DNA from: Coriobacteriia bacterium | GTDB lineage: Bacteria; Actinomycetota; Coriobacteriia; Coriobacteriales; Eggerthellaceae | Assembly: GCA_030536315.1 (NCBI GenBank) | Contig: JAUNQF010000011.1 | Coordinates: 1-38,981 of the forward strand | Direction: 5' to 3' | DNA: 38,981 nt | Shown: piece after piece, positions 1,798-28,840 of the stretch | Layout: each line of letters starts with the position of its first letter | How positions within the stretch are numbered: position 1 is the stretch's first letter | Translations under genes and position numbers: made by a program | Notes under the pieces: model-generated | Told to the model about the DNA's origin: nothing | Seen by the model: only the letters and a program-made list of their open reading frames with translations | Databases searched by the model: none

Positions 1798-4700
1798 TTG
1801 ATATCAACAGTAATTGAATTTGCAAGTAATCCAGACATTCCAGTTCCAATTAATGTCGATGCTCAAACGTCTGACAATTTGGGATTGATTATCCTTGGAT
1901 TGATTCTTGCAGCAACAGTTGGATTCTTGCTTTTTAACGTTTACAAAGGCAAGATGTCCTTAAACGTTAAAGGTATGCATTCAAAATCGCAAGTTGTGAT
2001 CAGCAATAATAAATTTATTGCCGCAACATTGATTGCCGTTGCAATTGCCGCGCTTATGTGCATTTTTTGCATAAGCAATTCTGCATTTGCTGCAAATGGA
2101 GTTAACGTTACAAGCACCGAAAAAGTAACAGCAACTTATGACCAAGCAACTGGCAAGGTCACTTTCGAAGAGGCTTTTGTTACAAGCGAGGAAGAAACGC
2201 AACTCGATTTCAACAGCATTCAACTTAAGCTCATGGACGGAATTGACGATGGTCACTGCAATTGAAAAATCTATCTAAATGACGAAGTCTTTTACGACGA
2301 CGTTGCAGGCTACACTCAAAAATTGTATGAGCCAATTAAAATGGAGCCTCTTGAGGAATTCACAATTACTTTCGAAACAAACATGAGCCCAGACGTTGCG
2401 TATTCTTTAGGTGGTCGTCAAGTAGCAACAGTAAATTATGATATCACCGAAGTCCAGACATATGTCAACGCCAAGCTTAATTTCCACGAGTCATCTATAA
2501 CTCCAGAAGGTGAGAAAGCGATTTCTCGAAATGGTTGGATTCTTAAAGATGGCTTATATCAAAAGAAGGAAGTTAAGAATTCGGAAATCGCTCCAGAGCT
2601 TGCTCCGCTTGAAGAGGGAATGGCAACTGGTAGCATTCAAAAAATGTATATGATGTTTACGGAGTGGACAATTTTAACTGTCGAAGACGAGCCAAAGGTT
2701 GTCGACATTTTCTCTAAAGACGTAACAATTGATGCTCAATGGGTAGATAGACCTGGTCTTCGTGGTTTTGTTGTTGACAATGCTGGCGAACCAGTCGAAG
2801 GCGCTATAGTAAATATTTACAATAAGAATACTGGCGAGATTGTTCAATCGCTTATCACCGATGAAAACGGCAAGTATATTTTCGAAAATCTTCCGCTTGG
2901 TGTTGAATATTATATAACTTACGAAAAATCGGGCACGCCAAATCTTGTTGCTCCTACTAAGGAATTTACTTCGTATGAAACAATCGGCGAGCTTGGCAAT
3001 AATGAAGTTACGGATGAATCAACTGTTAAGGGTAAGATTGAAGGTGCTCCACTTTCGCCTCAAACTTGGGCGGTTTTCTATGCAGATGACGGATCGAAGT
3101 ATGTTGCACCGGTTGACAGTCTAGGAAATTACAGTCTTCCTGTTCCTGCTGAACAGAAAGGCAATTTGCTCTTCGAAAACGACAACCCAGAAGTTATTAT
3201 TCCAGGCACACCAGGTTTAACAACTCCTGGTGCTGGAGAGACTTCGACATTGCCAAATAAAAATAATCTTCCAAAAAATCAATGCGAAAGCTTTTCTCTC
3301 AACCTTCAGCCTGCTGTTGAAGGTGCGCAGTTTGTTATAAGCCAATATAACTATACTGATGGAAATGAATATGCATTCGAGGCAACTTCAGATCATGACG
3401 GCAACGCAACCCTTTACGCAATGCCAAACTTGCCTGGAACTATTGAAGTCACATATTATGATCCGTTTTCCCGTCAAAATATTTCATACACACAAGATGT
3501 TGATGGAATTAATGCCGGTGAACAATTTATCCTGGATATTGATGCTACGAAGCTCCGTACAGTTGCAATGTCAATTTCTCCTTGAACAATTGACCAAGTT
3601 AATATTCCAAAAGGCTGAAGCACTAGTTATACAAAAACATTTGTTGTTGGCTCAAGCATAAATGCAATTGTTAACCAGTGGAACCCAAATTTAATGGATC
3701 ACCCTGAAGACGAAGCGTTCCTTTGCTGGTCAGAAAGCACTGGACAATTAGCTTATGATGATGGAGCAACTAAAAATATTTCTTTGATGTCTTCACCAAA
3801 AACTTATGCTAATTTTATAAAAGGCAAAGTAGTTGATTCGAACGGAAAGCCTGTTAGTGCTGCTAGAGTAGATTGTTTATTCACGCGTGAAACCCCTTCT
3901 TTCTTTCAGACAAGAATAACTTTAGCGACTGACAGAGATGGCTATTATAGTATGTATATGCCAAATTCATTTACTAAAGCATGAATTAGCGCATTTGGAA
4001 CAGAAGGGGAATTAGTAAATGCCTACAGTGAAAAGATTGATTTGACTATTAGCTCTGAATCTACCACTGTTCCAGATATTAAATTGATAAGCGGTTCTAC
4101 GTTTACAGGGAATTTAACATTTTCTTCATATATGCCTGCTAGCTATGTAACATTTTCAACTGCAGATAAACAATATGTTAGTTTTTCTAACGGTGATAAT
4201 TATGTGCTAAATGTTCCTACAAACATCGAAGGCACTTTATCTGTCACTCCACTTGTAACAGACTATAATTCTCCAAGCTGCACTATTATTTCGGCAGGCG
4301 CTGGCGAAGCTATTGTCCAAGATTTTTATCTATACAGAGAAGCTGATTTAAGCAAAGTAAATATAACTATTGAATCCCAATCTTCCAGTTCAACTTATTC
4401 TTTAAGTTATATTTCGGATGATAAACAATTCTCAATTGAAGAAGCTGGCATAGCTGCTGGAACACATACTTATACTGTTCCACCAAGCACACATGGTATT
4501 CTTAAAATTGTAGAGAGTGTTACTGGATGTGTATTTATTTACGGGCTCGACTCTGCTGCTTCTGGGTCTTCTACAACAGTAAGTGCAATTTTTAGAACCT
4601 TCCCAACTATTACTGCCGAAGTTGTAGATGGTACATTTATTGAAAGTAAAATGCCTGCGTTTTGGTCAAAAGAAAGCGACACACAATATACAACATCCAA

Positions 4701-5544
4701 ATTTATTGCTGGATCGACACTTGACTTGTGCTTGCAAGACATTGATAAAAATGCAATTGCAACTGAAAACTTATATTATTTCAAGGGCATAGAGCATGAT
4801 CCAAATGTTGTTCTTCTAACAGCTGACACAACAGTAACATTCAAGTGTGATCACTTTATTTCTGTTAAGGATAAGCTCTATCATAAACAAGATTGAGATC
4901 CACAACTTTATGAAGTAGGAACAATGAACGTGGTTGGTGATTATACAGATAATGTTTTGGGTTATAAAATATTACCATTCTGTTCTAGTATTTTGCTTGT
5001 TGGTCCTGACAATAAAGTTACAACCATGATTTCAGCGCTTATTACGTATAGTCCATACTTTGTACCTGAAACATGAAATTTTGGCAATGAAGCAACTGAG
5101 GAGTCTGGATATGTAATGTCTGACTTATATGTCTACCCTAACTTAGTAACTTCATGAACACCCAGCTCCGGAAGTATTTCAATTGGGGGAGATGTATCTT
5201 TAACAGATTCGGATAGAGACAAGCTTAACAAATTATTTTTAAAATCTGGAAGTACTTCTTGAAACTTTTACAGTGAAACTAATATCTTTTATGATTGTTA
5301 TAAACTTGCACCAGCTGTTATGGAATTTTTAGATTTGCATCCAACTAGAGAAGGATATACTTTTGGTGGTTGATTAATTCCTGATTATTTTAGTGCCCCA
5401 ATTGTTCCTAAGTGGATCCCAAATTCTCAAGCTAATGGTGTAACGATAGAAAATATTATTGTTTCTCCAGATGACGAAATCTATCAAGAAGCATTAAAAG
5501 ATCTTTATCCAGAAGATCAAGTAGACAACGAAGAAGTTAGGTAG
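1798..5544 (+). CDS. Large membrane-anchored surface protein with carboxypeptidase-regulatory-like domains and N-terminal QTSD hairpin
   Basis: A 1248-aa protein read through nine in-frame TGA (Trp) codons to TAG. The TTG start is supported by AGGGGAGG 5 bases upstream and by the MISTVIEF opening, which parallels the openings of the two giant proteins downstream. The N-terminus has a short peptide, QTSD at 23-26, a hydrophobic helix about 27-48, a basic loop, a second helix about 73-92 and an AFA/A signal-peptidase-like site near 96-99. The exported part has carboxypeptidase-regulatory-like beta domains near residues 320-377 (GLRGFVVDNAGEPVEGA) and 673-722, and an InlB-type repeat near the end (HPTREGYTFGGW). 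There is no C-terminal anchor. The SusD-like gene starts 8 bases after the stop, so the pair forms one operon. A binding or scaffold role at the surface is inference; no enzyme motif was seen. Confidence 0.85.
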
Positions 5545-5552
5545 GTGTAATT

Positions 5553-7392: not shown

Positions 7393-7438
7393 AAAATCAC
7401 AGCGTAAATTCTTGAATAATTTAATGATTGGAGTCATC

Positions 7439-10400
7439 ATGAAGGGTCAACATGTAAATTTTACAGCCATTAAAATTAACAGACGAAGGAAAATTTTGTG
7501 CATTGTTGTTGCAATCGCATTAATTGGTCTTATGCTTCCTCATGGAGTTTTAGCCCAGGTCAGGGCCTTCGCTGAGCAAAATGCTCAAAGCGCGGAAACT
7601 ACTGAAGTAACAGTAGAAACTCTGCAAAATAACGAAGACACCGCAACTGATTCTTCTGAAGAAGTTGCTTCAACCACAACTGAAGAAACAACGCCAACCG
7701 AAGCTCCAGCAGTTGATACTTCGACAAGTGAAGCGCCAAAGTACCACGAAAGTGTTAACGGCATCACAGTTCAAGCTCCTACAAACCGATCTATCCCTAA
7801 TGGTATTCCAAACGAGGCACTTTCCGCAACATTCGAAATCGCAGATCCTACAACATATCCAGATGCCGGGATGGAAATGTATTCTTACGATTATTGGGAT
7901 TACTACGGCGATAGTGAAATTGATATTGTCAGCAAGGAAAAAATTACGGACCCAACTTTTTCGGAAGCTTATTTTAATGAGGATGCATATTATTATGTTG
8001 ATGCCGATACAAATATTTTAGTCCTTATCTATGGAACATATCAAGGTGAATATCGTGTTGTTCAGGTTTTGCCTTATGAATTTGGGAGTGCAAAATTTGT
8101 AAAATGGACACTTAATGATATTGATCTTGTCCCTGATGAATTTTATGATTTTTCTTCCTCAGTATCTACATATACATTTAAAGCAGTTTATGAGGCTGCC
8201 GAAGGTTATGCAGCAAAGTTGCAATTGTTTAGCGATGAAGAAGGCGTTAATATTTCTATAAGAGACCAAAGTTCGTTGCCTGAAGGATGGAATTGGTCTT
8301 CGGATGGTTTATGGGTTTCAAAAATGTTTGCTGAAGAAACTGCATACAATGATATTTATGCAGACTTTCTTGGCGAAGGAAATGCCTACGCCCTTCACTG
8401 GCCAGGTCATGAATTTAAAGGTTGAATACCACAGTCAGCTGAAACAACGCTAGTCGCAGATACAGCATTTTATTATAACTTTGAAGAACATGCCGATATT
8501 ACTGTTAAGGCATATGCTGGCGAAGGTGAATTTACTGGCTATCAATATTACGAAGAGTGGCAGCTAGTTGATGATCATTACGAAGCATCATTTAAATATG
8601 ATTCTACAACAATGGAAGACGTTATAGATAGTTGGAGTGTTGACTTTCCACATAAAGCTGGTTATACATTTAAGGATTGAACTTTAACCCCAGAAGTCGA
8701 AGGCTATTTGATTGATGACGTTACCATGACAGCAACTTATGAAATAGCTCAAACCTATAAAGTTGAATTTGCTGCAGAAGTTATTACAAACGGGGTCTTA
8801 AATAATCCAAGTTGCGTAGGCGGATACGTTGAAGGCGCTGACTCTTATTACGTTGTTGAAAATTCAGAATATTTTCATGATTCATTTTATGGTTATATAA
8901 CTTATCCAGAAACATATGTGCTTTATGACAATGGTACAGACCTATATAGATATGTCGAGGCTGTTGCAAATGACGGTTATGAATTTGATTCGTGAGAAAT
9001 TACTCCTGCAGGCAGTGACGAAGAAGGCTATGTTACTCAAGACATGAAGTTCACTGCGAAGTTCAAAAATCTTGGTTCTGCTGTTGCAACCTTCGACTTT
9101 ACCGAAGACGAAACAATTGTAGTTGACGCCACTAAGGCTACCGAAGCCGGATGAGAAAAAGATTCAGCAGCAAATAAATGATCAAAGGTTATTCCATTAG
9201 GAACGGCAACTGTTCAAGCAATCGAAGAAGAATGAAGCGACTATGTTACATATTCGGATGGAAGCATTTATGCATGAAATCACAACAATGAAACCTATTC
9301 ATATGACAGCACAATTGATACAGACACAACGTGGGTGCCTCATAAAATTACAAATGATGACTATCAATTTTCGGTCACTGCAGACGACGAATATGGTTTT
9401 AATGCATCTTTATATGATCTTGACCCTGATTTTAATATAGCGTGATATCAATTTTTTGGTGCCGACTTTTCTGAGGCTACAACTTACAACGACACTTATT
9501 TTAGCAAGTATCCACTAAACTTAAAGTCATCGCTTGGCATGATTGGTTATCAAATTATTGATAATGACCTGGTATATGCTTATGTTAATGAGCGCGATAC
9601 CAACACATGATATTACGGTCTTGTTGTTCCAAATCTTGATGGCGCCGATAATGCTTATGTCCAATGGTCGCTAAATGGTGAACCTATTACAACAAGTAAT
9701 TTTAATTACTTTACTACCAAGACCAAAAATTATCATTTCAGTTATGATGTTCAAGAGAGTGTTAATGTTCGAGGTCAAATAACTGATGCTATTACTGCAG
9801 AACCACTTTATTATGAATATGTCTATTTTGTAGCTGGCGATGACCCAACAGCTGATCCTTTATTAAGAGTTGAAACTTCAGAATACGGTTTGTACAACTT
9901 TAATATTCCTAAGGGTACTTCGGGATATATTAAGGCTGATATTCGAGGTTATGGCACCGAAGTTGTTAAGGTTACTGGCACAAGTGACGAAGTTCACGAC
10001 ATTTCGCTTTATCCTGATATTGAGCTTTCTGGTCGAGTTGTAGGTGTTGACGGAAGTCAGTTGCAAGGTGTAAAAGCGGTGATTTATGATAGCGATACAA
10101 ATTTGCCCGTAAGCGATGAGATTTACACAAATCAGTATGGATATTATCGTTTTTCTGATCTTGTTCTAAAGGATACGAAATATTTTGATGAAGATGGATG
10201 CCCTACAAATATTTATGTAAAAGTTGAATACAAGCCGTTTACATCAATGGCTGCCTTTACAGGAACCTACACTGGAGAATTCCCTTACGGAGGAGATGCT
10301 GCTTATAAGGCTGGTGATATTACACTTGAGCCTGGTCTTTCGCCAAGCGAATGAAGTGTAAGTGCACTTGATGCTGCAGATCATTACACCTTCTATATAT

Positions 10401-11236
10401 ATGGAACCTATAATGGCGTAACATATGAAGGTGCAAAATTTAATACTTGAAATCAAAATTGGTTATATCAAGGTACCAAAGTTGGTGTAATTCGCGGCAA
10501 CATTCATGATGGAAGGACTTTTGGCCTTCACCTCGAATATGAATATGAAGGAGCTCCTTCGGAACATCACTATGATCTCTACATTTATGCTAAGTCAAGT
10601 GTCGAAGACCACACTCCTTATGCATGACGCCTTAATGGTGATTGAGTAACCGATTATATTGACCCAGGTTTTGTTTTGAATTTTAATGATCTTGATCCTG
10701 CTTCTGATGCCGTTAAATTCACAATGGAGTACAAACAAACAATTACTTCAACAATTAATGGCGAAGGCATTGAAGGTCATGATCATTTTCATACTCAATA
10801 TTACATTAATGATCCAGAGCATCTTTATCCTCCGACTGCCGAATGAGATAGTGCTTCTGTAAAAGATGAGCTCTATGTTGGTACTGAAATTTCCATTACC
10901 GAAGAGGGATTTGTTCACCTTGATTATGTTGATCCAAGTCTAAATTATGCAAATGAAGACGAGGATGTTTACGACGAGTGCGGAATTGTTGTTCCTATTC
11001 CTGCCGAAGGTTATCAAATTGCAAGGTGGACTTTAAATGGTGCAACTTTTAACCCTGGTGAACTTTATATTGTAGGAAGTGATGCTACGATTGATTTGGT
11101 TCCTGTTTATGAACCTATTCCAGCGCAGATTGATGCAAGCGCTCAAACAGGTGATTCCACTTCGACATTGTGAGTTTTTGCCGTACTTGTAATGGCTGGC
11201 GCTACATACATTGCAACCCGCAAAAAACTAAACTAA
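7439..11236 (+). CDS. LPXTG-like (QTGD) cell-wall-anchored surface protein with InlB-type and carboxypeptidase-regulatory-like domains
   Basis: A 1265-aa protein read through about 15 in-frame TGA codons to TAA. The ATG at 7439 has GGAG 5 bases upstream; TTG 7412 and ATG 7424 are weaker starts. A signal peptide (RRRK at 15-18, helix to about 38) ends at VLA/Q or AFA/E near 39-45. A Thr/Ser/Glu-rich spacer follows to about residue 100. The middle holds InlB-like strands (HKAGYTFKDWTLTPE), and two carboxypeptidase-regulatory-like domains lie near 775-960 (VNVRGQITDAITAEP, ELSGRVVGVDGSQLQGV). The C-terminus is a classical sorting signal: QTGD at 1236-1239, a hydrophobic stretch, then RKKLN. The protein should be sortase-linked to peptidoglycan. 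Its ligand is unknown. Confidence 0.88.
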
Positions 11237-12345: not shown

Positions 12346-15300
12346 ATGGGAGAATTTAAGACTGCGGTAGAATTTGTTCTGGGCCAAAGCCCTACACCAG
12401 AACCTACACCTGGTGGATGAACACCCTCACAAACTGGCGATTTACTTGGTATTGTTGGTGTAGTTTTGTTTGCACTTATTGCAATTGCCTCGCTAGGATT
12501 TTTTGTATATTCAAATAAGAAATCTGGCGTAAAGTATGGCAACTACATTTCAAATGCAGGTAAAGCTACGCTAACAAAGTCTAGCAAAATTGCTATTGCT
12601 GCTTTTATGATTGCTACGCTGGCCTTATGTAGCGTAATTTTCATACCAAGCATCACAAAGGCAGTGGCTGCAAATGACGAAGCGGATGAAACAGTCAAAG
12701 TTTATGTTGACACCGAAGCAGGAACCTTGACTTCGGAGCCTACAACAATTGTCAACAAGACTGATAAAAATGCTTATATAGCAGCTGTTCAAACAACCTT
12801 AACGCCGGATGCCGAAGAAATCTTGAAGGATGCAAAATTTAATCTAAAGATTGAATCCGAAACTCTTGGCACAACTTTGTATAACAAGGAAGTTCCTGGC
12901 GTAGACGACTCGATTAAGAGCCTACCATTTGCGGCTGGTCAAAAAGCCCAGGCCACATTAACAATCACGGATTTGGGCCTTGACACAGCAAAGCTGCTTG
13001 CCGGATTGAACGTGTTCACTGTTTCGTTCATTGAAGCCGAATGCTACGTTGTTTCATATGATGCCAACGGAGCAACTTCTGGAACAGCTCCGGCACTTCA
13101 GACCAAAGATCCTGGTAAAGATATCACTCTTGCCGCAACCACGGACCTTGAAAAAGACGGTTACACTTTTGAAGGCTGGAACACTTCGGCAGACGGATCT
13201 GGTACAACCTATCAATTAGGCGCAACATTTTCGACAGACGCTGACACTGTTTTGTACGCATACTGGAAGGAAAATCCTACTCCACCTCCACCTCCTCCTG
13301 CAGATACATATCGTGTTACATTTGTTGCAAGCACCGGCGGTATTGTTGATGCCGAATACATTGATGTTGACGAAGGCACCACTCTGGTCTATACCCCAAC
13401 AACAGGTAAGCTTGAGCTCAAAAATCAGGCTGACCAGTCGACCGTTAAAACTGTAATAGCAACCGCCAACACCGGATTTGTTTTTAAACAATGGGAGCTT
13501 GACGGAACAGCCATTACAACCGAAGGCACCATCAACTCTGCTTCCAAATTTACGGCCGTGTTTGACAAAGACATTCCAATAAGTGACTACACAATTACAT
13601 ACAAAGTCTTAAACACCTTCGATGCTCACGGCTCGATTGCTCTAAATTCTTCTAACGAAAACGGCGCTCCACTTGTTTCTGAAACTGTAACTGCAACTCA
13701 TGCTGCTGTTGGTGCGACGGCTTCGGAGGAAGACCATCCAGAATTTGGATATTACTATTTCTTTGACGGTTGGACTATCGAAGACGAAGCGCATTCGACC
13801 TGGTCATGTACCGATCCTTGCCTAAGCGCCGAAGCAATTGCAGCCCTTGGTTTAAGGGAAGACACAATATTCATTGCTCACTTTATTGCTCCCGTTGCTA
13901 AATATTCAGAAGAAAATTCGACCATGGTATTTTCTTGTGACGAAGTAATTGGCGATGGCAATTACACATTCCCCGTTTACAATTCAAATTGGGACGAAGA
14001 ATTTATGCAGTCTGGCGATTTTAGCCTTCTAACATTCCCAGCATGGTGTAATTATGACGGAACTCAAAAAGTCTATCCAAGAACGGTTCGTTTCAACGAA
14101 TCATTTGCAAAATACAAAGGCCTAACGTCAACATCGTTTTGATTTAATACCTCAACCATAACGTCTAGACGCATTTCAACTTCAAATGACGAAGGCAACA
14201 ATACTTCTCCATATAGTAGCGAAGCCAATTTAATCATGGAAAAAGCGACACTTCAACAAAGTGTATTAACAAATGTTTATGGTCTTGAAAATATATACAC
14301 TCAAAATCTTACACAGACAGCATTTATGTTTGCAACTTCAGATTTTTTGCTCAGAGAAATTTCAAATCAAAATGCAAATCGTCTTAATAGTTTAGATCTT
14401 TCATCATGAAATATTAATCCAAAAGACCAACAGGGTAATCCTCAATATGTAAACATGCGTTCAATGTTTATGGGTTGTACAGGTCTTACAAAGCTTGATT
14501 TGCCTTCGGAAGAACAAGGCCATTATTTTGGTACCTATGCTAATAATTTCACTGAGTGTTTTTATCGTTGTTCAAGCCTGCAAACTTTAACTTTAAATGG
14601 TGATTTCGGTAAATATGCCACAGATTTGACTGGCATGTTTGTTATGTGCAGCAGTCTATATAGTATAGATATTGGTTCTGGGTTCGGATCCGCTGCCACA
14701 CGTTGTATCAGCTTATTTGATAGTTGCGAATCGCTTTTAAATATTAAGTTTAATCCAAATTTCTGTCAAAACGCTACAGATATTTCGCATATGTTTTATT
14801 GTTGTTTAAAATTGACTCAGATTGATTTTGGCACAAATCCAAAAATAGGCCAGAGTGTACGTTTTTGCAATTGTATGTTTCAAGGTTGTTACAATCTTAG
14901 AACTATTGATTTGTCTTCTTTTGTTGTTAATGAAGACGTTAGTTGTGGAGATATGTTGAACAACTGTGGTTCTTTAGAATCATTTAGGATTTCTGATTCT
15001 TGAGAAGAACCAATGAGTTATACAAACTTAGGTTCTGTAGAATCTAGTGAAGGTTGATATTTAAATTACAATAAAGGAATTTCATATGATAAAAACCAAA
15101 TTCCAGAAGAAAGCGGTTCTGGTTTATTTTCGAGGATGAGCGCTAAAGCAGTTTATGACCCAAAGGCACTAACTTTTTCATTCTATTACGATTGCGACTC
15201 TCATAGCGATGATATAAGCAGGGGATGTACTGTTTATCCTGTTGATGGTAATTGTGGTTTTTCCGCTGGACAGTATGGAATCCGTTCCACAGAAAGAAAT

Positions 15301-18300
15301 GAGGAGTCCAAAAGACTAAGCAATGACAAGCTTTCTGCTTTAGATTATGCTACGAATTTTACAATTGACGCTCTTGATGATCTTAGAAGACCGGGTATTA
15401 TGGATTATCGTTTGTCTGGTTTAACCTTGCCTTCCTGGTACATGATTGATTACAATAATTATAAGATTGTAAACTTACTTAAGGGAGCTAGTAAGATTGA
15501 TGTAAATTTCACTGAATCTTTTCAGTATTGCCCTTATATTTATTCCACTTCATGTTGGTTTATGGCCGATTCAGATGGTTATGCTCCATTTAAATTTGAC
15601 TTAGCTTATTTTGGTCGTATTCCAACACAAAACATAAGACAAACAGCATGCATGTTTGGCGGATTCAGTTTTGAAATGTTTAAGCCACAAAACTATTGAT
15701 ACGATGGATCAAATTCAGAAATTCGCTATGATTCTTCAGTGGGTGTATTTATTTCGCCATATTTAGATACATTTAACACAACATTAACTGATCTTGATTT
15801 AAGTAATTTCAATATTATAAATTCATATACTGATTATGGAGCAATTTGCGCAAACTGTAAGGCCTTAACTAAAGTAACCTTACCATCAGCATTTATTGAT
15901 ACTAAGGATGAAGACACTAATAATAATGGATCAAACATAGCTGTGGGACAGCATGGCGAAATTTGTTCATTTGCTGGTGCATTTTATGGATGCGAAAGCT
16001 TGCAAGAAATTACAAACCTTAGCAAGTTTAATCCTTTTACTGTTGTTAATAGAGCCGGATGAAATTTTGATTATTATGCAATTGGAAAAATGTTTTACGG
16101 ATGCCAAAATCTAACGTCGCTTGATCTAGGCTTATTTAATACAAATTACATAATTGGTAGTAGAGGTTCTAAATCGTTTTCTGCATATAATGTTTTTACG
16201 GGCTGCAATAAGTTAACATCAATTACCATCGGCAGCAATTGGTATATACCTATGGGTTCTGAATATGCTAATTTACCAAGTCTTGAAGATTTTGGTATTC
16301 GTTGGCAAAAGAATGGCGAGGGTTATTCTACAGATTCAATACCATATTACAAAAGTCATGATGAGCCTGACAATTACGGTACATTTACAAGAGACCCAGA
16401 AGAAATTGAAAGGCTTAGACAGACTGTAAGTATTTCTTCGGAGGATCCATCTAAGGGAACCGTAAGTTCAGGTTCTTATATGTTTTATCCGAATAAACCT
16501 GTGTGCGTTAACGGATCAGATAACTTAATTAGATTAAATGATACAACCATTATTGCAACTCCAAAAGAAGGATATAAGTTTGATTATTGGACTGTTGGCG
16601 GTTGGTATTATGACAACGAAGAGTGTTCTTTTGCAAAGTCATTTGAAATTGTTGCTCATTTTTCGCCAGATGGATATTCGGCAAAAGCTGTTTATACAAA
16701 AAACAATAGTGCTTACGACAATGATAATACGCTAACTTTCTATTATGACAATGTTGATCATTCTTCGGAAGGTACTGTTTACGAGGTTATCCCAAATACT
16801 AGAGCTGACACATATAAGGGTAATGCCGTATTGCCTTCGTGATTCCAAACAACTTATGTGGCGAAGGCAGATATGGGCCAAGTAAGTAGTCGCACAGTTA
16901 TTAGTAGAGAAGAGCTTGAGCGAAGGATGCGTCAAAGCAGTGCTTTATATTACAATCCTTATTCAAGTTCTAGTACTGCAACAACAACAACGTATAGTAA
17001 TTTATGAAAAATTCAAACTCTAATTGAGCCAAAAGACGTTATTTTTGCCGAAAACTTTAAGAACTTTACCAATCTTTCAAGTATTTCGATGTGGTTTATG
17101 GCAGATCAGTTTGGAACTCAAACTGTCGAAAATTTCTACAGCCCAACTTCGTCTAATCCAAAGAATCCTGGTTTTGCCAATTTATATACAAGTAATTTAA
17201 TGGATGTTAAATATGCATTTGGTGGTTTGTTTGAAGAAGATGTTGCTGAAGACACAGTTCAAGAAATGCTACTAGATGGTGTAATAAATATGGTAGATGC
17301 AGTTACTTCGCCAGCTAATAAGGATGACGAAAATGTTGAGTGGTCAAAGAGCACAGAAACCTATGGAACTTCTATATCGACTTTGGATTTAACTGGGTTT
17401 GACTTTTCTCATGTTCCATATTTAAAGGCAATGTTTGCAAATTGTGTTGGTTTGAAAACAATTAAATTCGGTAGCAATTTAAACACTGAAAACCTTTATG
17501 ACTGCAATGCTATGTTTGTAAATTGTGAAAACCTGGGTCCAATTTTTAGAGATTGTGTTGAAAATTGGAATAAATTTACAACTACAAGAGTTGAGGACTT
17601 TGATTATATGTTCTATGGCTGCAGCGGAATTGAAGAACTTGATATATCTAATTTATCAACCGAAAACGCTTATACATGAAAGCGTTCAATTGCAGCAGCT
17701 TTGGAATCAAATGGGTGAAATGCAGATGATGCTAGCGGATACAAAGTATTTTCAGAATGCACAAGACTTTCAAAAATTAAAATTAATAGTTATTATGACG
17801 AAAACAAACCAGCAAGTGTTGGTGGATGAAACCTCAATTTAGGTTTATCTGGACTTGCTGATTGCAATGGCGAAGGTAAATGAATTAATGAAGATTCTGT
17901 CAATTGGGATCCAACACCTGAATCCAATGAGATACCATATGATATAGACGTTTATCGCACAAGAGGTTACCTGGAGGAAAATGAAATTTATACTGGCACA
18001 TTTTACCGGTCTAACAAGTTTTTAGAAAAGTCAGTAAATATTGAGTCTAATGATGACGTTTTAGGTAAGGTTAGCGATTCGAAATATGGCTATATAAATG
18101 ATGTTCAAATTAAGGCTGACAATGTAAACGATAATGTTATTTATGTTGATAATAGAAAGATTACTGCAATTCCAGAAGAAGGCGCAAGGTTTGCTTACTG
18201 GCAAATAGCCATTGGCGATTCGGAGCCTGAAGCTATTCCAGCAGGATACAATCAAACATTTAGTGCTTTGGATGATTATAAGATTAATATTACTGCTGTA

Positions 18301-20409
18301 TTTATCAGCAATGAAACTAATGGTTATGTTGCATTTTCTGTTAATGATTCGCGTGAGGGTACCTTTACTTTTTACTATGGTGTAGGCACCGAAGCTGCTG
18401 CTTCGAAATATGTTCCTTCTGGAGAAAAATTGATTAGTGTTTTTGATGTTAAGTCAAATACAAGCGACTACGATTTGCCTTCGTGGTATAGAAAATATCA
18501 GGAATCGTGGCATGAAAATGACAACCATCCAATTCCAAAGTTTGTCAAGGTAATTGAAGACAACGTAGACAACAATAAGCTGTATGTTAGATTTGACAAG
18601 ACATTTACAGAATTTAAGGAACTTAGAAGTATGTCGTGCTGGTTTATGGGTGCTTTGTCTCACATAGACGAATCTGTTTTGTTTAATCCATTTAACCTTG
18701 ATAGTGCTGATCATTTTGCTGGTCTTGAAAATATTGACACAGGAAATATTTCTAATGTGGCATATATGTTTGGTGGACATGAGTATTTCAATGATTTGCA
18801 TGGTTCAAAAAATACGAAGATTTACCTTGAAAATTTTGACGTTAAGGGCAATATCAAGAATTTAAGTGGCTTGTTTGCAAACTTGCCAAAGCTTACTGAG
18901 CTTTATGTTGGCGACAAGTGTTTTTATGGAATGAAGAATGTTTACTCAACTTCCAAAATGTTCTATAACACTCCATTGCTTGAGAAGGCTGAACTTAATT
19001 GGCTTAATACTCAGGAAGTAAGTGAGATGGAATATATGTTTGGAAATACGGTTGAACAAATTCCTTCGGAAGCCGCATTAGATGTATCTAAGCTTATATT
19101 ACCTTCTAACTTCGTAATTACAGAAAAGGTTAAAAGCCTTGAAGGTATATTCTGTGGTTATGCAGATTGTAAGGAATTTGAAGTTAAGTTTGATAAGTGC
19201 AAGTCGTCTTCGTCATTTAATCAAATTGAAAATATGTCTTACATGTTCCAAAATTGCTGTCATGCAACAAGGATTTCTGTATCAGGAACAAACAATTTAA
19301 CTTCTGCTAGTGTTACTAATATGTCTCATATGTATGAAAATTGCACGAAGATTAATAGTGTAACAAGTCAAGACGAACAAATTCCTACAGAACTTACTAT
19401 GATCAATGCAGTAACTGATTTTAGTTACATGTTTGCTGGTTGTTCAAGCCTTAATCGTTATTCATTGATGCGTGAAACGTCACCAGCTTATTTGATTCAA
19501 TCGGCAGCATATATGTTTAGTGATTGTCCTAATCTTAAGGATGTTGAGTTTGCAGGAAACTACAATTGGTTCTATGTTGATGACTTTGATAATTATTATC
19601 GTAGTACTGGTGCTGTAAATATGTTTGCTAATTTAGATGGTACATTAAATTCAACTTTGGAACACTTTACTTATGATACTAATGCTTGGAACAGTGCTAT
19701 TTCTTTTGCTGCTGCAGGTTTAGCATATGTTAATGGTAATAATCCAATTGGATGGATAAATAGTAAATCAATGTATTATGACATTTCAACAAGAATGCCA
19801 GATATTGTTCCTGTTCCTTCAACAAATGATATTAATATGGTCACGTTTGACAGGATGACTACTAACTATTATTTCAAGCTAAGTAGTAACAGTGCTGGCT
19901 TTGCTTATGGTGAATGAGACGATAAAATAAGCATTGCTACTTATATGCTGCCATTTATTGGTGTCGCAGGAGGGTACTCTATTACTGTTAATTTAGGTCC
20001 TGTTGAGAAATATTGAAATAATTCACAGGAGATTAATTTTGTTTTGACAAACACTTCAAAAGGGCTATCTAGAACATATACTTTAATTGGTAATGCTTAT
20101 GATGATTTTAATCCAGAATGGTATTACGAAACTATTCAGAGTCACCAGACAGGACAAATTACTACTGGCAGTGATTTACCTGATGAAGATTCAATTATTT
20201 GGTTCTTCAATATTCCTGGACAAGAGCAACAACGTCAGGTAGATGATTGTGTTGCCGAAGCTCAGGCTGTCGAAGCAGCTGCTGTTGATGAGGTAGCTGT
20301 TGCTGACGAAGCCATGCCAGCTGCCGAAATTGCAATTGAAGCAGTTAGCGCATTTGTCCTCCCAATCCCAGTAACTCTTGTAAACATTGCGCTGTCTTTA
20401 ATCTGGTAA
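12346..20409 (+). CDS. Giant BspA-like leucine-rich repeat (DUF285) surface protein A with N-terminal QTGD hairpin
   Basis: A 2687-aa protein, open throughout when TGA is Trp, with a TAA stop. The N-terminal module has a Pro-rich peptide ending in GGW (Trp25 is TGA), QTGD at 29-32, helix 33-56, NKK and other basic residues, a second helix about 82-101, and AVA/A near 106-109. InlB-type repeats follow near 233-309 (DGYTFEGWNTSADGSG) and 318-405. The rest is four large units of BspA/DUF285 repeats (MF..C..L..IDLS pattern), each opened by a strand pair (F.YD...HS..GTVY) and containing a WFM motif. Divergent InlB-like linkers separate later units (KEGYKFDYWTV). The C-terminus is EVAVADEAMPAAE followed by an uncharged hydrophobic tail. 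BspA-type proteins often bind host matrix; adhesion here is inferred. It is the tandem paralog of the next gene. Confidence 0.9.
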
Positions 20410-20566: not shown

Positions 20567-23500
20567 ATGACTACATTTAACACCGTTGTTGAATTTGTTC
20601 TTGGCCAAAATCCCACACCAGAGCCTACACCTGGCGGATGAACTCCAACTCAAACTGGCGATTTTATTAGCACTGCGCTAATTTTGCTGTTTGTTTTGGT
20701 TTCCCTAGGCTCAATGGCTTATTTGCTTTATTCTCGTAAAAAGGTTGGTGTAAGCTATGGGGGTTACTTTAAAACCACTGGTAAAAATGCACTAACAAGG
20801 TTAAACAAGATTGCAATTGGTGTGTGCATTGGAGCTTTTGTTGCACTACTTGCCGTTGTTGCTTTTAGTGGTGTGAACAAGGCAATTGCGGCTGATAAAG
20901 AGGCGGACGAAACAATTAAAGCCTATGTTGATGTTGAGTCTGGCACTGTAACTTGTGATGTTGCAACAATTGTCAACAATAGCGAAAACACAGTTTATAT
21001 TGCTTCGACTCAGGTAGATTTAACTGACGAAGCAAAGGAAGTCCTCAAAGATTCTACGTTTAATCTAAAAATTCAATCGGATGACCTTGAAACTACCCTT
21101 TATGATAAAGAAGTTCCTGGTGTAATGGACGAAATTAAAAGCCTTCCTTTTGAATCTAAACAGTCGGTTAAGGCTTCGTTAACTATTACAAACCTTGACT
21201 TTGCCACAGCAAAATTGCTAATTGGCAAGAAGGTTTTGGACATCACTTTTGCCGAAAAAGATTGCTGGTCGGTTGTTTATAACAGCAATGGTGCTCAATC
21301 GGGAACTACTCCTTCGCCACAAATTAAAGAAGCTGGAAAAGCTTTAACATTGGCTTCGAAGCCTGACTTTGTTAAAGAAGGTTACACATTGCAAGATTAT
21401 TGGACAACAGATCCAGCTGATGGTGCTTCGGCAACACACTATAATTTTGGCGCCGAATACACCGACGATGCAAACCTAACCTTATATGCTGCGTGAACCC
21501 CTAATCCTGTTCCAGGAAAATATAACGTAACATTTACTTGTTCCGAAGGCGGAAGCATAACATCGGGTTCTGATTTTTCTGCTGACGAAGGAGTTGAATA
21601 TGCTTATAAGGACATTGCAACAAGCGCTACGGAACATTCATTGGAATTTAAAACTAATGAGTCTGATGACTCCCATGTTATTACTGTAAAAGCAAGTGAA
21701 AATTATAAATTTGATAAATGGACAGTTAATGGTGCGGCTGTTACTCAAGGAAAAATTAGTTCGTCAACAGCATTTGTTGCCAACTTCATCTATGTTGCTC
21801 CTCCTTTAACGGACATTAAAGTAACTTATAAAATTTATAATACAATTTTTGTTAACGGTAACGTTCAGTTGCTTAAGTCGGGTTCAAGTCCAGATGTAAG
21901 TGTTTACGAAGAAGTTAAAGTTAGCGAACAAAACTATCAAGGTGCAAAGGCAATTGAGCTAGAAGACAACGAAGATAGCAGGCTTGATTATTTCTGATAT
22001 CACTGGACAATGGAAGGTGTTGATGACTGGTCCTATGATGGAAAAGAACTTACAAAAGATGTTATATCTGCAAAGTTTGGAACTCTTAGCGAAGACGTTA
22101 CATTTATTGCTCATTTTGTAACTCCTGTTGCAAAATATACAGAGTCAAATTCGACCATGATTTTTTCATGCGATGATTATGCTGACGAAGACGACAACTT
22201 CATCTTCCCTGTAAACAATACTCACTGGGATGATAATTTTGATGGAACCTCAGAAACTTTAGGCTTGTTAACATTGCCAAGTTGATGTAATTATGATGGT
22301 ACGCAAAAGGTTTATCCAAGAACAGTTAAGTTTTTAGAATCATTTAAAGCGTACAAAACTTTAACATCAACATCCCTTTGGTTTAATTCACAATATCTTC
22401 TTCGGAACGAAGCTACGGCTGTTATTTCTGAGGAAAGCCCATCATATAGTCAAAAGAGAGTTTTAACAAATATTTCTGGTCTAGAAAATATTTATACTGA
22501 AAATATTGAAGAGACTGCAATGATGTTCAGTTGTTCGTATGATAACAGGTCAAAAGATCTTTTAACTAGTATTGATTTATCCTCATGAAACCTTTGTCCA
22601 AAAGACTCAAATGGTAATTACAAACCTATTAATATGAATTCAATGTTTAGTTGTTGTTCTGGCTTAGAAACTATTAAGCTTCCTGCAGAAACCGAAGGCC
22701 ATTACTTTGCTACAAACGCAAGTAACCTTGCTTATATGCTTGATGATTGTATTAGCCTCTCTAAGATTAGCTTAAATGGTTCTTTTGGAGCAAATGCTAC
22801 CACCATACATGGATTGTTTGGTTGATGCAATAATCTTTTAAATATTAATATAAATGAAGATTTTGGAGCTAAAGCAAAAGATGTCGGTTATCTATTTGCT
22901 GACTGTAACAAATTAAAAGAAATTAATTTGCCTGCAAATTTTGGTGCTGTAGCTACAAATCTTGATAACGTATTTTCTGATTGCTATGAATTGCTCAATA
23001 TTAATTTTGCAGAAGGCTCTAAGTTTGGTATGGCCTCTCAAACATCTGAAAACTTTAGATGTGATCACATGTGTATTGAATGCTATAAATTAAGGTCGAT
23101 TGATCTTTCTAACTTTAAGATACCTAATAGTTATACTCCAGAGAATATGTTCGTAGATGCAAATGATATTTCTGAATTCAAGATTTCAGATAAATGAGAG
23201 GTAAATATGAGTGATGTCGGAATGCATGGTGTTGACGATTCTAATAAGTGGGTTAAGGATTATACTGGAGGTTCATACGCAACAGAAGCCATTCCTGGCT
23301 CTTCTGGTGCCGGTATCTTTGTATTAACTACACCAAAGGCAATTTATAACCCAACAGATAGCACTTTTACATTCGTTTATGATTCTGCAGATCATTCAGA
23401 AGAAGTAAAAGCTGGTTCTACAATATTCCCTGTTTATGAGAAAACTGGTTATGTAACAGGAATGATTCAGGAAGATATTGATGATTATTCGGCATATAGA

Positions 23501-26500
23501 CTTATGGGTGACACATTGGCATCGTTTGTTGTAAATGCTGGAGGGGAAGTATTACCTTTTAGACCTCATCAATTAGGACGAGTATCTCAAGCTGAATATT
23601 ATGATATTTCAAATTTAGATTTGCCGTCTTGGTACTATCTTGATACAGAGGCATATAAAATTGAGTGCATGATTAAGAACGATGTTACTGTAATCTTCGA
23701 TTCAAGCTTTTCTATGTGTAAAGATATTTATAGTACATCATGTTGGTTTATGGCAGACTCAGATGGAAATGCGCCATTTACTCAATTTAAGAGTCGAATA
23801 AATGGAAAACTTGTTGATGGCTTTACTAATATTCCTACTAATAATCTTCAATCATGCTCTTCGATGTTTGGTGGTTTTTGTTACGAAGCCTACAAGCATC
23901 ATAATTATTGGTACAATGGATCAGATAGTGATATTCCATTATCTGACCCTTGGCGAATATTACCAGCTTCAAATACTGGAAATGTATTTGTATCATCGTT
24001 TTTGGATACATACAATTACAAGCTAAGTACCTTAGATCTTTCAACTTTCAATATTTCTAACATGAATGTAATTGATTATGGTGCCATATGTGCTAATTGT
24101 AAAGGCCTTACCACAGTAACATTGCCATCTAGATTTATTCAACCTAGTCAAGAAGATAACAATTTTGATTATCCGGGCACAAGAGGGGATTATATCTCCT
24201 TTTCTGCAGCTTTTTATGGCTGTGAAAAACTTGAGAATGTTACAAATATTCAAAAATTTAATCCATTTACGATTATGTCTAAGAATAAAACGTTTGGTTC
24301 ATATTCTATTGGACGTATGTTTTATGGCTGTAAAAGCCTAAAGAGTATTGATCTATCCTGTTTTGATGTTGATAATTATATTGGTTATTCAGGTCTTGGT
24401 TACTCCGCTATGTACCGTTACGAAGATGTATTTTGTGGTTGTGAGATGCTTAATCAGATTAAATTAGGTAATGGCTGAGATTTACCTATGTCGACATATT
24501 TGGAGAAAACAAAAGGCGAAAGCAACAATCGTAATATTAGTATGTGTGCTAACTTGCCAGCCTATGATAGTGCCGATATTTTTTGGACGTTTACGCCAAA
24601 TGATACTTCCTTACCGCCTGTTACTGATCTTCCAACTTATGCAATTCCTATTCGTGATGATAAATCTATATCAGACTACCCAGCTGGTACTTATGTACGA
24701 AGCGATAGTTCCGTTTCAACTTTGCTAAAAACCATTACTATCAGTCCTGATGATGAGAATAAGGGTAACGTTAGCCAGGATTCATACACCTTCTATAATA
24801 GTTCATATTCCAGCGCAAATGAAAATGTGGTTGAAATTAGTTGTAGCAATAATATTTTATGAATTGAAGATACAAGAATTGTTGCTACCCCTAAAGAAGG
24901 TTACATTTTCACTTATTGGACACTGGACGGGCAGATTTTTGATTCGTCAAATGATCAATATGTTAATAAGTCTTCAAGTATTGTTGCTCATTTTATGCGT
25001 TCTGATTACACGGCAAAGGCAGTTTATCAGAAAAACAATAGCGCATATGATGGTCACAACACACTAAGTTTTTATTTTGATAACATAGATCATAATTCTG
25101 AAGGTGATGTATATGAAGTTAATAGCTCGTTTGTTGATACTTCGTCTCGCTATGTAAATCTACCTTCATGATATACATTAACATATGTTGCCAGCAGCGA
25201 TTCATGGGCCTCGAAATTTAAAGAAGGTAAACAGCAGCAAATAGGGTCTATAAGCGAATATATACGTCATATTGATGCTACGATGATGGATTATAATCCG
25301 TATTATTCAGCTCGTATATATAGTGTTCTTTCTACTCAGTATAGTTCTTTATGAAGGATACAGACATTGGTAGAACCAGAGGATGTTGTTTTTGATAAAA
25401 GCTTTAAAGATTATACGCAACTTCAAAGTATATCTATGTGGTTTATGGCCGATATGTTTGGTACACAAACTGTCAAGAATTTTTACAGCCCTACTGATTC
25501 AAATCCAAAAAATCCTGGTTTTGCAAATATGTTTACAGGTAATTTAACTGACGTTTCCTATGCTTTTGGTGGTTTATTTCAGGAGGTAAATGCGCTACCA
25601 AATATGTTAATGCCTACTCAGGAATTAACAAATAGTGTTTTTGATGAAACCAAGGATGTTGTCTTAAATCAGCTTTGGTCTAATGATTACGAAACATACG
25701 GCACTTCGTTAGAGAATATTGACTTAACAGGATTTGACTTTTCTAATATTAAGGACATGTCATATATGTTTGCCAATTGCGTTTCGTTAAAGAACATTAA
25801 GTTTGATAGTAATTTGGACACGTCTCGCAATTTATACAATATGGGAACATTTGCAAATTGCGAAAATCTTGGACCTGTGTTTAGTAATAGCGTGCAAAAT
25901 TGAGATAAGTTTACTACGGAAAATGTTGCTTTCTTTGACGAAATGTTTTACGGATGTAGTGGAATTGTTGAGCTTGATTTGTCTAAGTTTAATACCGACA
26001 AAGCAGTATGCAATCCTAATTTCGAAGATTTATATAACGGAAATATAAGTGCTCCTGGTATGTTTAGTGAATGTACAAGACTAACAAAAATTAATGTTCA
26101 TTCAGAATATGATGATGATAGCTATTATAACATTACAGGTTTTAGTCTAAATCTGGGCGAATCAGGTCTAGCAAACTGTAATGGTGATAACGTAGTATGG
26201 AAAAATGATGGTGACACATCATGGCAGGAAACTGATTCTTCTTACAGGATTCCATATAATAGCAATATTATCTGGGAAGGCTCAGATTTATCTGAAGGAA
26301 ATATTCACACAGGTACATTTTATAGGTCTCAAAATTTTGACGAAAAGAGGGTTGAAGTTGTTTCAAATGATACATCAAAGGGTACAGTTAGCGAAGACGG
26401 TTATGGTTATATAAATAATGTACAAATTATGCTTAACAATTTAGAGAGCAATTCAATTAATTTAGATAATCGTAAAATAACAGCTACAGCAAAAGACGAA

Positions 26501-28840
26501 AATTCAAGGTTTGCTTATTGGAAGATTCAAATTGGTGACGAAGATGAATTTACAATGCCTAATGGTTATTGTGAAACCTTCTTTGCAGATGATGATCTTG
26601 AGATAACCATTACTGCTGTGTTTGTGTCAAATGAAGAGAATGGTTATGTGGCATTTTCTAACCATCAAAATGGAGATAAAAAGGAAGGTACATTTACTTT
26701 CTACTATGGCACTGCTGACGAGGCTTCTGATTTTGTTCCAGAAGGAGATACATTTGTAGAGGTTTATCCTGTTTATAATAATACAAGCGATTATAACTTG
26801 CCTTCGTGGTATAGAAAATATCAGGAATCCTGGATTAGTGGCGACAACCATCCAATTCCTAAATTTGTAAACAAAGTTGAATCAAATGCTGATACCATTT
26901 TTGTTAACTTCGATTCTTCGTTTAAGAATTTTGATGAGTTGCGTAGTATGTCTTGCTGGTTTATGGGTGCTTTATCTGCAACTAACGAAGCAGTCTTATA
27001 CAATCCATTTGCTTTAGATTCGGCAGAACACTTTAGTGGCCTCGATAATATTAATACCTCAAATATAGATAATGTTGCTTATATGTTTGGTGGTAGTGAA
27101 TTCTTTAATGAGATTCATGGATCAAAGAACGAAACCATTTATCTTAAGGACTTTGATAAGGAAGGAAACATTAGGAATCTATCTGGCATATTCGCCAATT
27201 TGCCAAGGCTAACCAACCTTACTGTTGATAATTGCTTTAATGGAATGACAAAGGTTACTTCTACTTCGAAGATGTTCTACAATACTATTAAACTAGAAAA
27301 GAGCAATCTAAACTGGTTAAAGACACAAAATGTTGAAGATATGTCTTATATGTTTGGTAATTCAGTTGATGGAAAGCCTAAAGAAAAACTTGTTGAGGAT
27401 AATCCGTTTACACTTACACTTCCAGAGAATTTTGTCTTTTCTGATAATTTGTATAATTTAGAAGGTATGTTTAGTGGATATGCAATTTATCCAAAGCTTA
27501 TAGTTGATTTCTCAAAAATTCATACAAGCGAAAATAAGGTTATTCGTAAGGCTAACATGTCACATATGTTCCAAAATTGCTATTGGATTTCAAGTATTGA
27601 ATTTAAAGGAACCGTACCTGAGATATTTAGTAGGGGTACCGACATGTCATATATGTATAAGAACTGTTCTAACATAAAGAAGGCAACAAATGGCAACGAT
27701 AGTGCAATTCCAGTACCATTACAATGTGTGGCTTATGTTATTAATTTTAACAATATGTTTGATGGTTGCACCAGCCTAGAGGATTATTCGCTTACTCGCG
27801 AAGATAAAGATTTCGATATTGAATATATGCAATATATGTTTAGTGGTTGCACTTCGTTAAAGACAGTTAGTTTGGATAGTGGATACTATTGAGATAAGAG
27901 TTGTTCTGGGCCAGCGCTTATGTTTAATAATACTGATGGCACTTTAAATACTACGTTAGAGCATTTTTCATTTGATAGAGATAATTGATATGATGATATA
28001 AGTTTTTATGATTGTGGTCTAAGTCTTTTTGTTGATGACTCTGCTGGATCATCTCAATTAAACCCATTAATTCCTATAACATGAGTTCGTCAAAGTGATC
28101 TATCTTATGCTACTCCGTTAAATTTACCTATTGATGATTCAGAAGACAATAATGATGTTTCTAATATTGAGACGTATGATCGAGCTACAACTAATATTAG
28201 AGTTGCAAATTGCTATAGTTTTTATGGTTATAATTGGGAGTCGACAGATTGGCATGAAACAGCATTAAGGTGCGTTGATGTCGGTTACTATCAAATTATA
28301 TATTATATTGGTATTCCAGAGGGTTATTCGCTGAAAGTAAAGTATGTTGATGAAGAACCAGCATATGATGAAGTTTTTACCTATGTAGAATTTGTTTTAA
28401 GCAATCCAGACAATAGTAAATCTCATTATTATAGAATAGGCCAATATTATGACGAAGGAACTACTGACCCACATGATTGAACTCTTCATGATGTTGATGG
28501 TAAAGTACAAGATTATAAGTTAACTTCTGAATATAAAACAATTACTGCAGGATCTAATTATTGTATATATTATCCTTATGTTCCTTATGAAGTTCAACCT
28601 AGGTTATTTTCTGAGAATGCTAGCAATGATAATTATATAGATAATAACTTAGATCAAAATGATGCTTATGCTGAAGAGGTTGCTGTTGCTGACGAAGCCA
28701 TGCCAGCTGGGGAAACAGCATTTGAAACAATGGCAAGTCCAGATGTTTCAGCTGTCGAAGTTGCTACTGCCGCAATGAGCATATTGACTATGCCGTTGCC
28801 GATTCAGTTCTTTTCGTTATTGATTGAGATTCTTATATAA
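20567..28840 (+). CDS. Giant BspA-like leucine-rich repeat (DUF285) surface protein B with N-terminal QTGD hairpin
   Basis: A 2757-aa tandem paralog of protein A, read through about 16 TGA (Trp) codons to TAA. The N-terminal module matches A position for position: VEFVLGQNPTPEPTPGGW, QTGD at 29-32, helix 33-55, RKK at 57-59, second helix 82-101, AIA/A near 106-109. An InlB-type repeat (KEGYTLQDYW) and a second beta repeat follow, then four BspA/DUF285 units (starting near bases 22130, 23340, 25010 and 26640) with WFM motifs such as SCWFMADSDG and SMWFMADMFG. Divergent InlB-like linkers precede the last two units. The tail repeats EVAVADEAMPAG and ends in a hydrophobic stretch without charged residues behind it. 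It has its own promoter and terminator. A surface adhesion or antigenic-variation role is inference. Confidence 0.9.

Follow-up and report, generated by a model that had tools for sequence, protein, structure and literature searches.

Sorting motifs near the N-terminus of surface proteins have been described in streptococci. Pneumococcal IgA1 protease, ZmpB, ZmpC and ZmpD carry N-terminal LPXTG motifs (PMC7939560), and in the IgA1 protease a signal peptide is followed by a 200-residue N-terminal domain that holds transmembrane segments and the anchor motif (PMC2225412). For the M26 IgA1 proteases, a passage in PMC9637739 that cites Bender and Weiser (2006) states that sortase A recognizes the N-terminal motif and that the protein is cut 56 residues downstream. 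These streptococcal proteins contradict the original prediction, made for the DNA analyzed here, that no N-terminal sorting signal had been described (PMC7939560, PMC9637739). N-terminal sorting signals being already known, what looks new in the present case, as judged from structure models, is a docking strand in front of the signal.

The window, that is, the whole 38,981-nucleotide stretch of Coriobacteriia DNA that was analyzed, encodes three large surface proteins, referred to below by their start positions. When TGA is read as Trp, the 1798, 12346 and 20567 frames are free of stops over 1248, 2687 and 2757 codons, and the predicted sorting-signal layout is present at all three N-termini: first a tail of 26-32 residues that closes with QT[GS]D, then two helices joined by a basic loop, and after them an AxA site. 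The elements do fall at identical positions in both giants, with QTGD at residues 29-32 and A-x-A-A at 106-109 of the 12346 and 20567 proteins. The module of the 12346 protein occupies 12346-12675 of a gene that spans 12346-20409, and its N-terminus (TGA=Trp) reads MGEFKTAVEFVLGQSPTPEPTPGGWTPSQTGD-LLGIVGVVLFALIAIASLGFFVYSNKKSGVKYGNYISNAGKATLTKSSK-IAIAAFMIATLALCSVIFIPSITKAVAA. A C-terminal QTGD had been assigned to a protein at 7439; it is found in a reading frame that runs from 7412 to 11236 and ends AQTGD-TM-RKKLN. The features are as follows.

1798..5544, + strand: surface protein, 1248 aa, TTG start, with the module and a SpaA/CarboxypepD_reg domain
1864..1875, + strand: QTSD motif of the 1798 protein, residues 23-26
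2083..2091, + strand: AFA of the 1798 protein, possible signal peptidase site, residues 96-98 (AFAA = 96-99)
2095..2466, + strand: domain 1 of the 1798 protein
7412..11236, + strand: surface protein with an ordinary C-terminal sorting signal
11144..11155, + strand: C-terminal QTGD of the 7412..11236 protein, for comparison
12346..20409, + strand: giant surface protein, 2687 aa (TGA=Trp), with N-terminal module, domain 1, InlB-like repeats and DUF285/BspA-like LRR repeats
12349..12381, + strand: N-peptide GEFKTAVEFVL of the 12346 protein, residues 2-12, a conserved strand-pattern peptide before the sorting signal, the equivalent of which is a beta strand in AlphaFold2 (AF2) models of two relatives
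12430..12441, + strand: QTGD sorting motif of the 12346 protein, residues 29-32, a weak match (E 0.056) to the C-terminal sorting-signal profile
12445..12510, + strand: transmembrane helix 1 of the 12346 protein, approximate limits, from hydropathy; a helix in the AF2 model of the 20567 protein
12511..12585, + strand: K-rich basic loop of the 12346 protein, predicted cytoplasmic, 6 K/R and 0 D/E
12586..12657, + strand: transmembrane helix 2 of the 12346 protein, signal-peptide-like, from AF2 model and hydropathy
12661..12669, + strand: AVA of the 12346 protein, possible signal peptidase I site, residues 106-108; small residues stand at -3/-1 in all modules inspected
12673..13044, + strand: domain 1 of the 12346 protein, conserved jelly-roll-like beta domain behind the hairpin, from alignment, AF2 and domain search
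20567..28840, + strand: second giant surface protein, 2757 aa, module as in the 12346 protein; residues 1-236 modelled with AF2
20570..20602, + strand: N-peptide strand of the 20567 protein, residues 2-12, predicted with pLDDT about 89
20651..20662, + strand: QTGD motif of the 20567 protein, residues 29-32
20798..20890, + strand: transmembrane helix 2 and AIA site of the 20567 protein, residues 78-108
20912..21262, + strand: domain 1 of the 20567 protein, residues 116-232

On this basis the first ~110 residues may be read as an N-terminal cell-wall-sorting hairpin, the layout of which is well supported by sequence and the processing of which we infer. As in the IgA1 metalloproteases of streptococci and Gemella and in ZmpB/C/D, a motif lies near the N-terminus, two membrane helices follow and the body is exported behind them; in compact Coriobacteriia modules the distance from QTGD to AxA is about 45-55 residues, against the reported cut at 56 in IgA1 protease. 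However, the Coriobacteriia modules lack a signal peptide, which only the relative L065 has, and no G5 or M26 Pfam match was found in the members scanned, so that these proteins are not members of the IgA1/Zmp group. In place of an N-terminal domain of ~200 residues they have a tail of 20-50 residues that amounts to a single strand and a linker, their bodies (DUF285/LRR, lipase, NlpC/P60) are unrelated to those of IgA1/Zmp, and they carry domain 1. Two further observations concern the window. Several module proteins end in a hydrophobic C-terminus without basic residues (e.g. ...FVLPIPVTLVNIALSLIW and ...MSLFFIILVI; window 20340-20409 and 28760-28840, and module proteins of contigs C7 and C9), perhaps a second membrane contact. 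In addition, 5553-7286 encodes a SusD/RagB-like protein (SusD_RagB E 1.8e-16) whose signal peptide is of the ordinary kind; the lineage is Gram-positive and has no outer membrane. Another SusD-like frame was recognized by eye in L013 (G000:C9).

The translations depend on the genetic code of this genome (G000, 1.09 Mb, 75% complete), the SecY of which is most similar (88%) to that of a Coriobacteriia metagenome-assembled genome, with Eggerthellaceae next. TGA is read as Trp because it occupies conserved Trp positions in phosphoglycerate mutase, ribosomal protein L2 and glycerol kinase; TGA=Gly (code 25), the first reading tried, was ruled out by these positions. The relatives use the standard code. 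A search for prfB (RF2) gave only a prfA-level match of 272 bits in this genome (C9:67977-68933), against 443-470 bits for full prfB in three relatives. A tRNA-Trp with anticodon CCA is present in the 75% complete assembly, and a TCA-anticodon tRNA-Trp was not found in those parts of it that were read. A literature search for code reassignment in Coriobacteria found no paper on such a reassignment.

The resemblance to a wall-sorting signal extends beyond the motif itself. In common with C-terminal sorting signals (LPXTG_anchor TIGR01167, Gram_pos_anchor PF00746), motif, helix and basic residues stand in the same order, although here they lie at the N-terminus, with the motif at residues 18-49, and, where the chain would otherwise end, lead into a second helix and the exported protein. 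A profile built from 17 C-terminal sorting signals of three genomes, and from no N-terminal module, returned 20 matches in the window's genome at E<=0.01, namely 9 C-terminal signals, 1 internal signal, 10 N-terminal modules and nothing else; the predicted layout is thus recovered in 10 modules with no unrelated match. In the relative G014 the same threshold gave 21 matches, 15 of them C-terminal and 6 N-terminal. Against the TIGR01167 cut-off of 15.9 bits, one N-terminal copy passes with 16.4 and the others fall just below, the score of the passing copy being similar to that of the C-terminal copy at 11144 (16.2 bits). No row of a 20-row alignment departs from the T and D of the motif; these two residues are constant between families as well, while linker, helices and loop vary. 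The degenerate spellings xQTGD, ASTSD/QTSD, AATGD and STGD occur at both N- and C-termini, and the same spellings are shared by the N-terminal modules and C-terminal signals of the same genomes.

A sortase that could act on these motifs is encoded, as the original prediction had proposed to establish. One was found in the window's genome (C24:8461-9279, minus strand), and it belongs to class B, with 149 bits to TIGR03064, just below the cut-off of 153.75, and with SrtB enzymes as its nearest solved structures; all six genomes tested encode a sortase. Class B sortases usually recognize NPQTN-type motifs. Since the genome is 75% complete, further sortases are possible. A sortase of G014 shares the gene neighbourhood of the C24 enzyme, which includes a DegP-like protease and an MprF-like protein (both named by eye), and that genome encodes a second sortase. 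Adjoining the latter is a short secreted protein (L130, G014:C9:15001-25000, 5479-6888, minus strand) that ends ...DTSPKTGLY, a sorting motif truncated ahead of any helix.

The module is not confined to the window. Three Coriobacteriia genomes, which belong to two GTDB families, have about 25 copies between them: 13 in the window's own genome (about ten from the protein search, 13 after later searches, one of them frameshifted), 9 in G014, which is of another genus, and 3 in G365, which is of another family of the same order. The relatives searched comprised 138 genomes for the family and 397 for the order; only G014 and G365 were positive, and the full module was present in none of 395 other genomes, an even draw over the phylum. 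The module-bearing genomes are drafts; at least one derives from a metagenome, and two are about 75% complete. A contig scan with the N-terminal region of the 12346 protein matched no relative, and many weak matches in relatives proved, on inspection of their contexts, to be ordinary C-terminal sorting signals or chance. Such recurrence, with the same layout in many other proteins of one genome, counters the possibility of a chance fusion limited to one protein. In the shortest copies just 3-6 residues separate the helices, which defines the core of the module as N-peptide, T[GS]D motif, helix, a few basic residues, helix and AxA. The bodies behind it include DUF285/BspA-like repeats, InlB-like repeats, CarboxypepD_reg domains, a class 3 lipase and an NlpC/P60 domain; because the bodies differ, the hairpin is a targeting module and not a piece of one protein. 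In L022 (G000:C16:10001-24859, 2114-7076, minus strand) a second and nearly identical module copy is disrupted by a frameshift inside the basic loop, and could be a recent duplication, a pseudogene or an assembly error.

Several related architectures bear on how the module may have arisen. In the window's genome, L019 (G000:C21:45001-65000, 12515-16323) appears to encode a polyprotein with a signal peptide, a domain A, an internal SQTGD-helix-RKR, a second helix with VANAG and a domain B; a frameshift near 12991-13069 is either real or an assembly error. A long protein of G385 (L190) has a similar fusion, LPTTGD...AFAAP, and in G091 (C31; L079/L195) LPSTGD-helix-RRK is followed in frame by a lipoprotein signal peptide with the lipobox LAGC. 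Finally, L065/L136 (G114:C142, about 2868-3392, minus strand) is a frame of 174 codons in which LPETGD, two helices and AIAEE precede an early stop; it resembles a truncated IgA1-protease-like layout. These four cases make up a gradation, with two fused proteins at one extreme and a minimal peptide at the other, which suggests that the module arose by fusion of the end of one protein to the start of the next.

Charge distribution predicts the orientation of the hairpin. The N-tail is negative or neutral in net charge (mean -3.1) and the inter-helix loop is positive (mean +4.4) in 23/23 modules, and by the positive-inside rule the QTGD tail would therefore lie outside, in answer to the question of topology raised by the original prediction, and not in the cytoplasm. 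In several module genes a stop codon lies 1-8 codons upstream of the start, leaving no room for a signal peptide in those genes, and an unannotated upstream signal peptide was dropped from consideration on this ground. The relative L065 (genus g9, G114) has a signal peptide and about 35 residues ahead of LPETGD and the same two helices, so that its LPETGD would lie outside too.

What precedes the motif is itself conserved. Twenty N-peptides can be aligned on a common invariant Phe, with the consensus I/L/F-x-T-x-I-x-F: positions -6, -2 and 0 are hydrophobic, -4 tends to be Thr, and polar residues occupy -5 and -1, an alternation that in sequence terms is that of a beta strand. N-peptides without the Phe are found in the lipase-like module proteins of L139 and L314, and a third in L178. 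Directly behind the AxA site lies domain 1, a conserved domain of ~110 residues for which Pfam searches gave no family above cut-off. A search with domain 1 only found 24 copies in the three genomes, 24/24 of them behind a hairpin, and no copies in six relatives without the module; one module (L128:1937-2746) is without domain 1. This co-occurrence indicates that N-peptide, hairpin and domain 1 act as one unit.

AlphaFold2 models, based on the family alignment of 20 rows, suggest how they may do so. In the 20567 protein residues 2-12 are a DSSP strand with pLDDT 89 and domain 1 has pLDDT 84-94; in a G365 protein with 27% or less identity to the other alignment rows, residues 2-12 are likewise a strand (pLDDT 95) and domain 1 reaches 89-98. 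Strand pairing was read from DSSP, pLDDT and alignment ranges. DSSP calls a strand only for hydrogen-bonded ladders; since domain 1 contains every other strand, it has to be the pairing partner of the N-peptide in these models. The N-peptide is thus predicted to be the first strand of domain 1 in two divergent members, the second strand of the domain following only after the membrane hairpin. Structure alignments begin at model residue 1, skip the hairpin and continue through all of domain 1, matching complete jelly rolls (HDT2, Z 8.3, rmsd 2.2, 87/95 residues; GOLD domains, Z 7.7). This nucleoplasmin/GOLD-like comparison (Foldseek E 0.001 at best, VIA Z 7.7 and 8.3) is at background level for such models and serves topology only; no family could be assigned, the structure searches returning generic jelly rolls.

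In donor-strand complementation and split domains (chaperone-usher pili, SpyTag/SpyCatcher, GAIN/SEAL-type), a cut domain is held by the strand of another chain. The present arrangement would differ in that the strand is linked by sortase to the wall and a membrane hairpin lies between strand and domain. An isopeptide bond of the SpyTag type was considered and dropped, as no single residue type precedes the invariant Phe (E, N, D, Q, S, T, K, R and H all occur there); unlike SpyTag/SpyCatcher-type pairs, the Coriobacteriia modules have no conserved catalytic isopeptide residue. To our knowledge the predicted strand-in-domain arrangement has not been described before.

Taken as a whole, layout, conservation, charge orientation, motif identity, sortase presence and, in the models, strand pairing support a scheme for the display of these proteins. 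In this scheme the N-tail, which is short and acidic, would pass through the membrane with its N-end leading and no signal peptide ahead of it, bringing [A/S/T/V]-Q-T-G-D to the outside, with helix 1 and the basic loop as the remainder of an ordinary sorting signal. Helix 2 and the AxA site would act as an internal signal peptide that exports the body, whereupon the N-peptide strand may dock on domain 1 and complete the jelly roll. The class B sortase could then cut T|G and join the strand via its Thr to the wall, while signal peptidase would cut behind helix 2 and the helical hairpin would be discarded. The body would be kept on the wall by its own wall-linked first strand, clipped into domain 1. 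We infer both cleavages, the wall linkage and the retention of the body by the strand, and the complete explanation, with sorting hairpin, docked strand, both cuts and retention, is offered tentatively as one that falls a little short of probable. The split-domain wall anchor as such, in which strand 1 is tied to the wall by sortase and holds the body released by signal peptidase, possibly reversibly, we regard as somewhat short of probable. It counts against this explanation that anchoring to the wall by a strand held noncovalently is unusual, and that NPQTN-type motifs are the usual targets of class B sortases.

Signal peptidase cleavage behind helix 2 may be absent. Sortase would in that case still act, helix 2 would keep the body in the membrane, and the docked wall-linked strand would serve as a second, membrane-to-wall attachment. 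The same sequence evidence fits this scenario, and the length and hydrophobicity of helix 2 (Kyte-Doolittle mean 1.9-3.2) would suit an uncut anchor. However, small residues are found at -3 and -1, at the right distance, in all modules inspected (literal AxA in 20/23), and IgA1 proteases of the same layout are reported in the passage of PMC9637739 noted above to be cut 56 residues behind LPXTG, such that an uncut helix 2 appears unlikely. It is less likely again that the sortase step is missing altogether, leaving a plain two-helix membrane anchor with an N-terminal strand packed on domain 1, and QTGD as a relic of a C-terminal sorting signal fused to the signal peptide of the next protein. 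Such fusions do exist, as the internal sorting signals with a second signal peptide in L019 (contig C21) and in G385 (LPTTGD of L190) attest. A relic would be expected to decay, however, whereas T and D stay the same from family to family, in contrast to linker, helices and loop, and the motif spellings match those of functional C-terminal signals.

Two further scenarios carry far less weight. The N-peptide, released or linked to the wall, might itself be the product, as a signal or decoy peptide, with the body simply secreted. The peptide is conserved and short, as this would lead one to expect, yet its conserved pattern is that of a strand docked on domain 1 in the models, domain 1 accompanies the module in 24/24 cases, and one genome encodes many paralogues with slightly different peptides; this scenario is thus judged improbable. 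Most improbable is a cytoplasmic tail in which the motif is a chance resemblance. The lack of a signal peptide ahead of the motif would agree with a tail that stays inside, but the charge bias in 23/23 modules, the conservation of the motif, its match to the profile and the signal peptide that precedes LPETGD and the same two helices in the L065 relative all argue otherwise.

N-terminal sorting signals have so far been mainly an oddity of streptococcal metalloproteases. The module described here would represent a display route for a whole family of surface proteins, adhesins and enzymes among them, of gut-type Coriobacteriia, in a phylum other than that of the streptococci. How a protein that is cut from its own sorting signal is retained by the cell is not obvious, and the models suggest that the anchored piece may be a strand of the very next domain. 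If true, the arrangement would be a natural split-protein tag, and would involve export of an N-tail without a signal peptide. The idea of a docking strand raises the same question for the IgA1 proteases.
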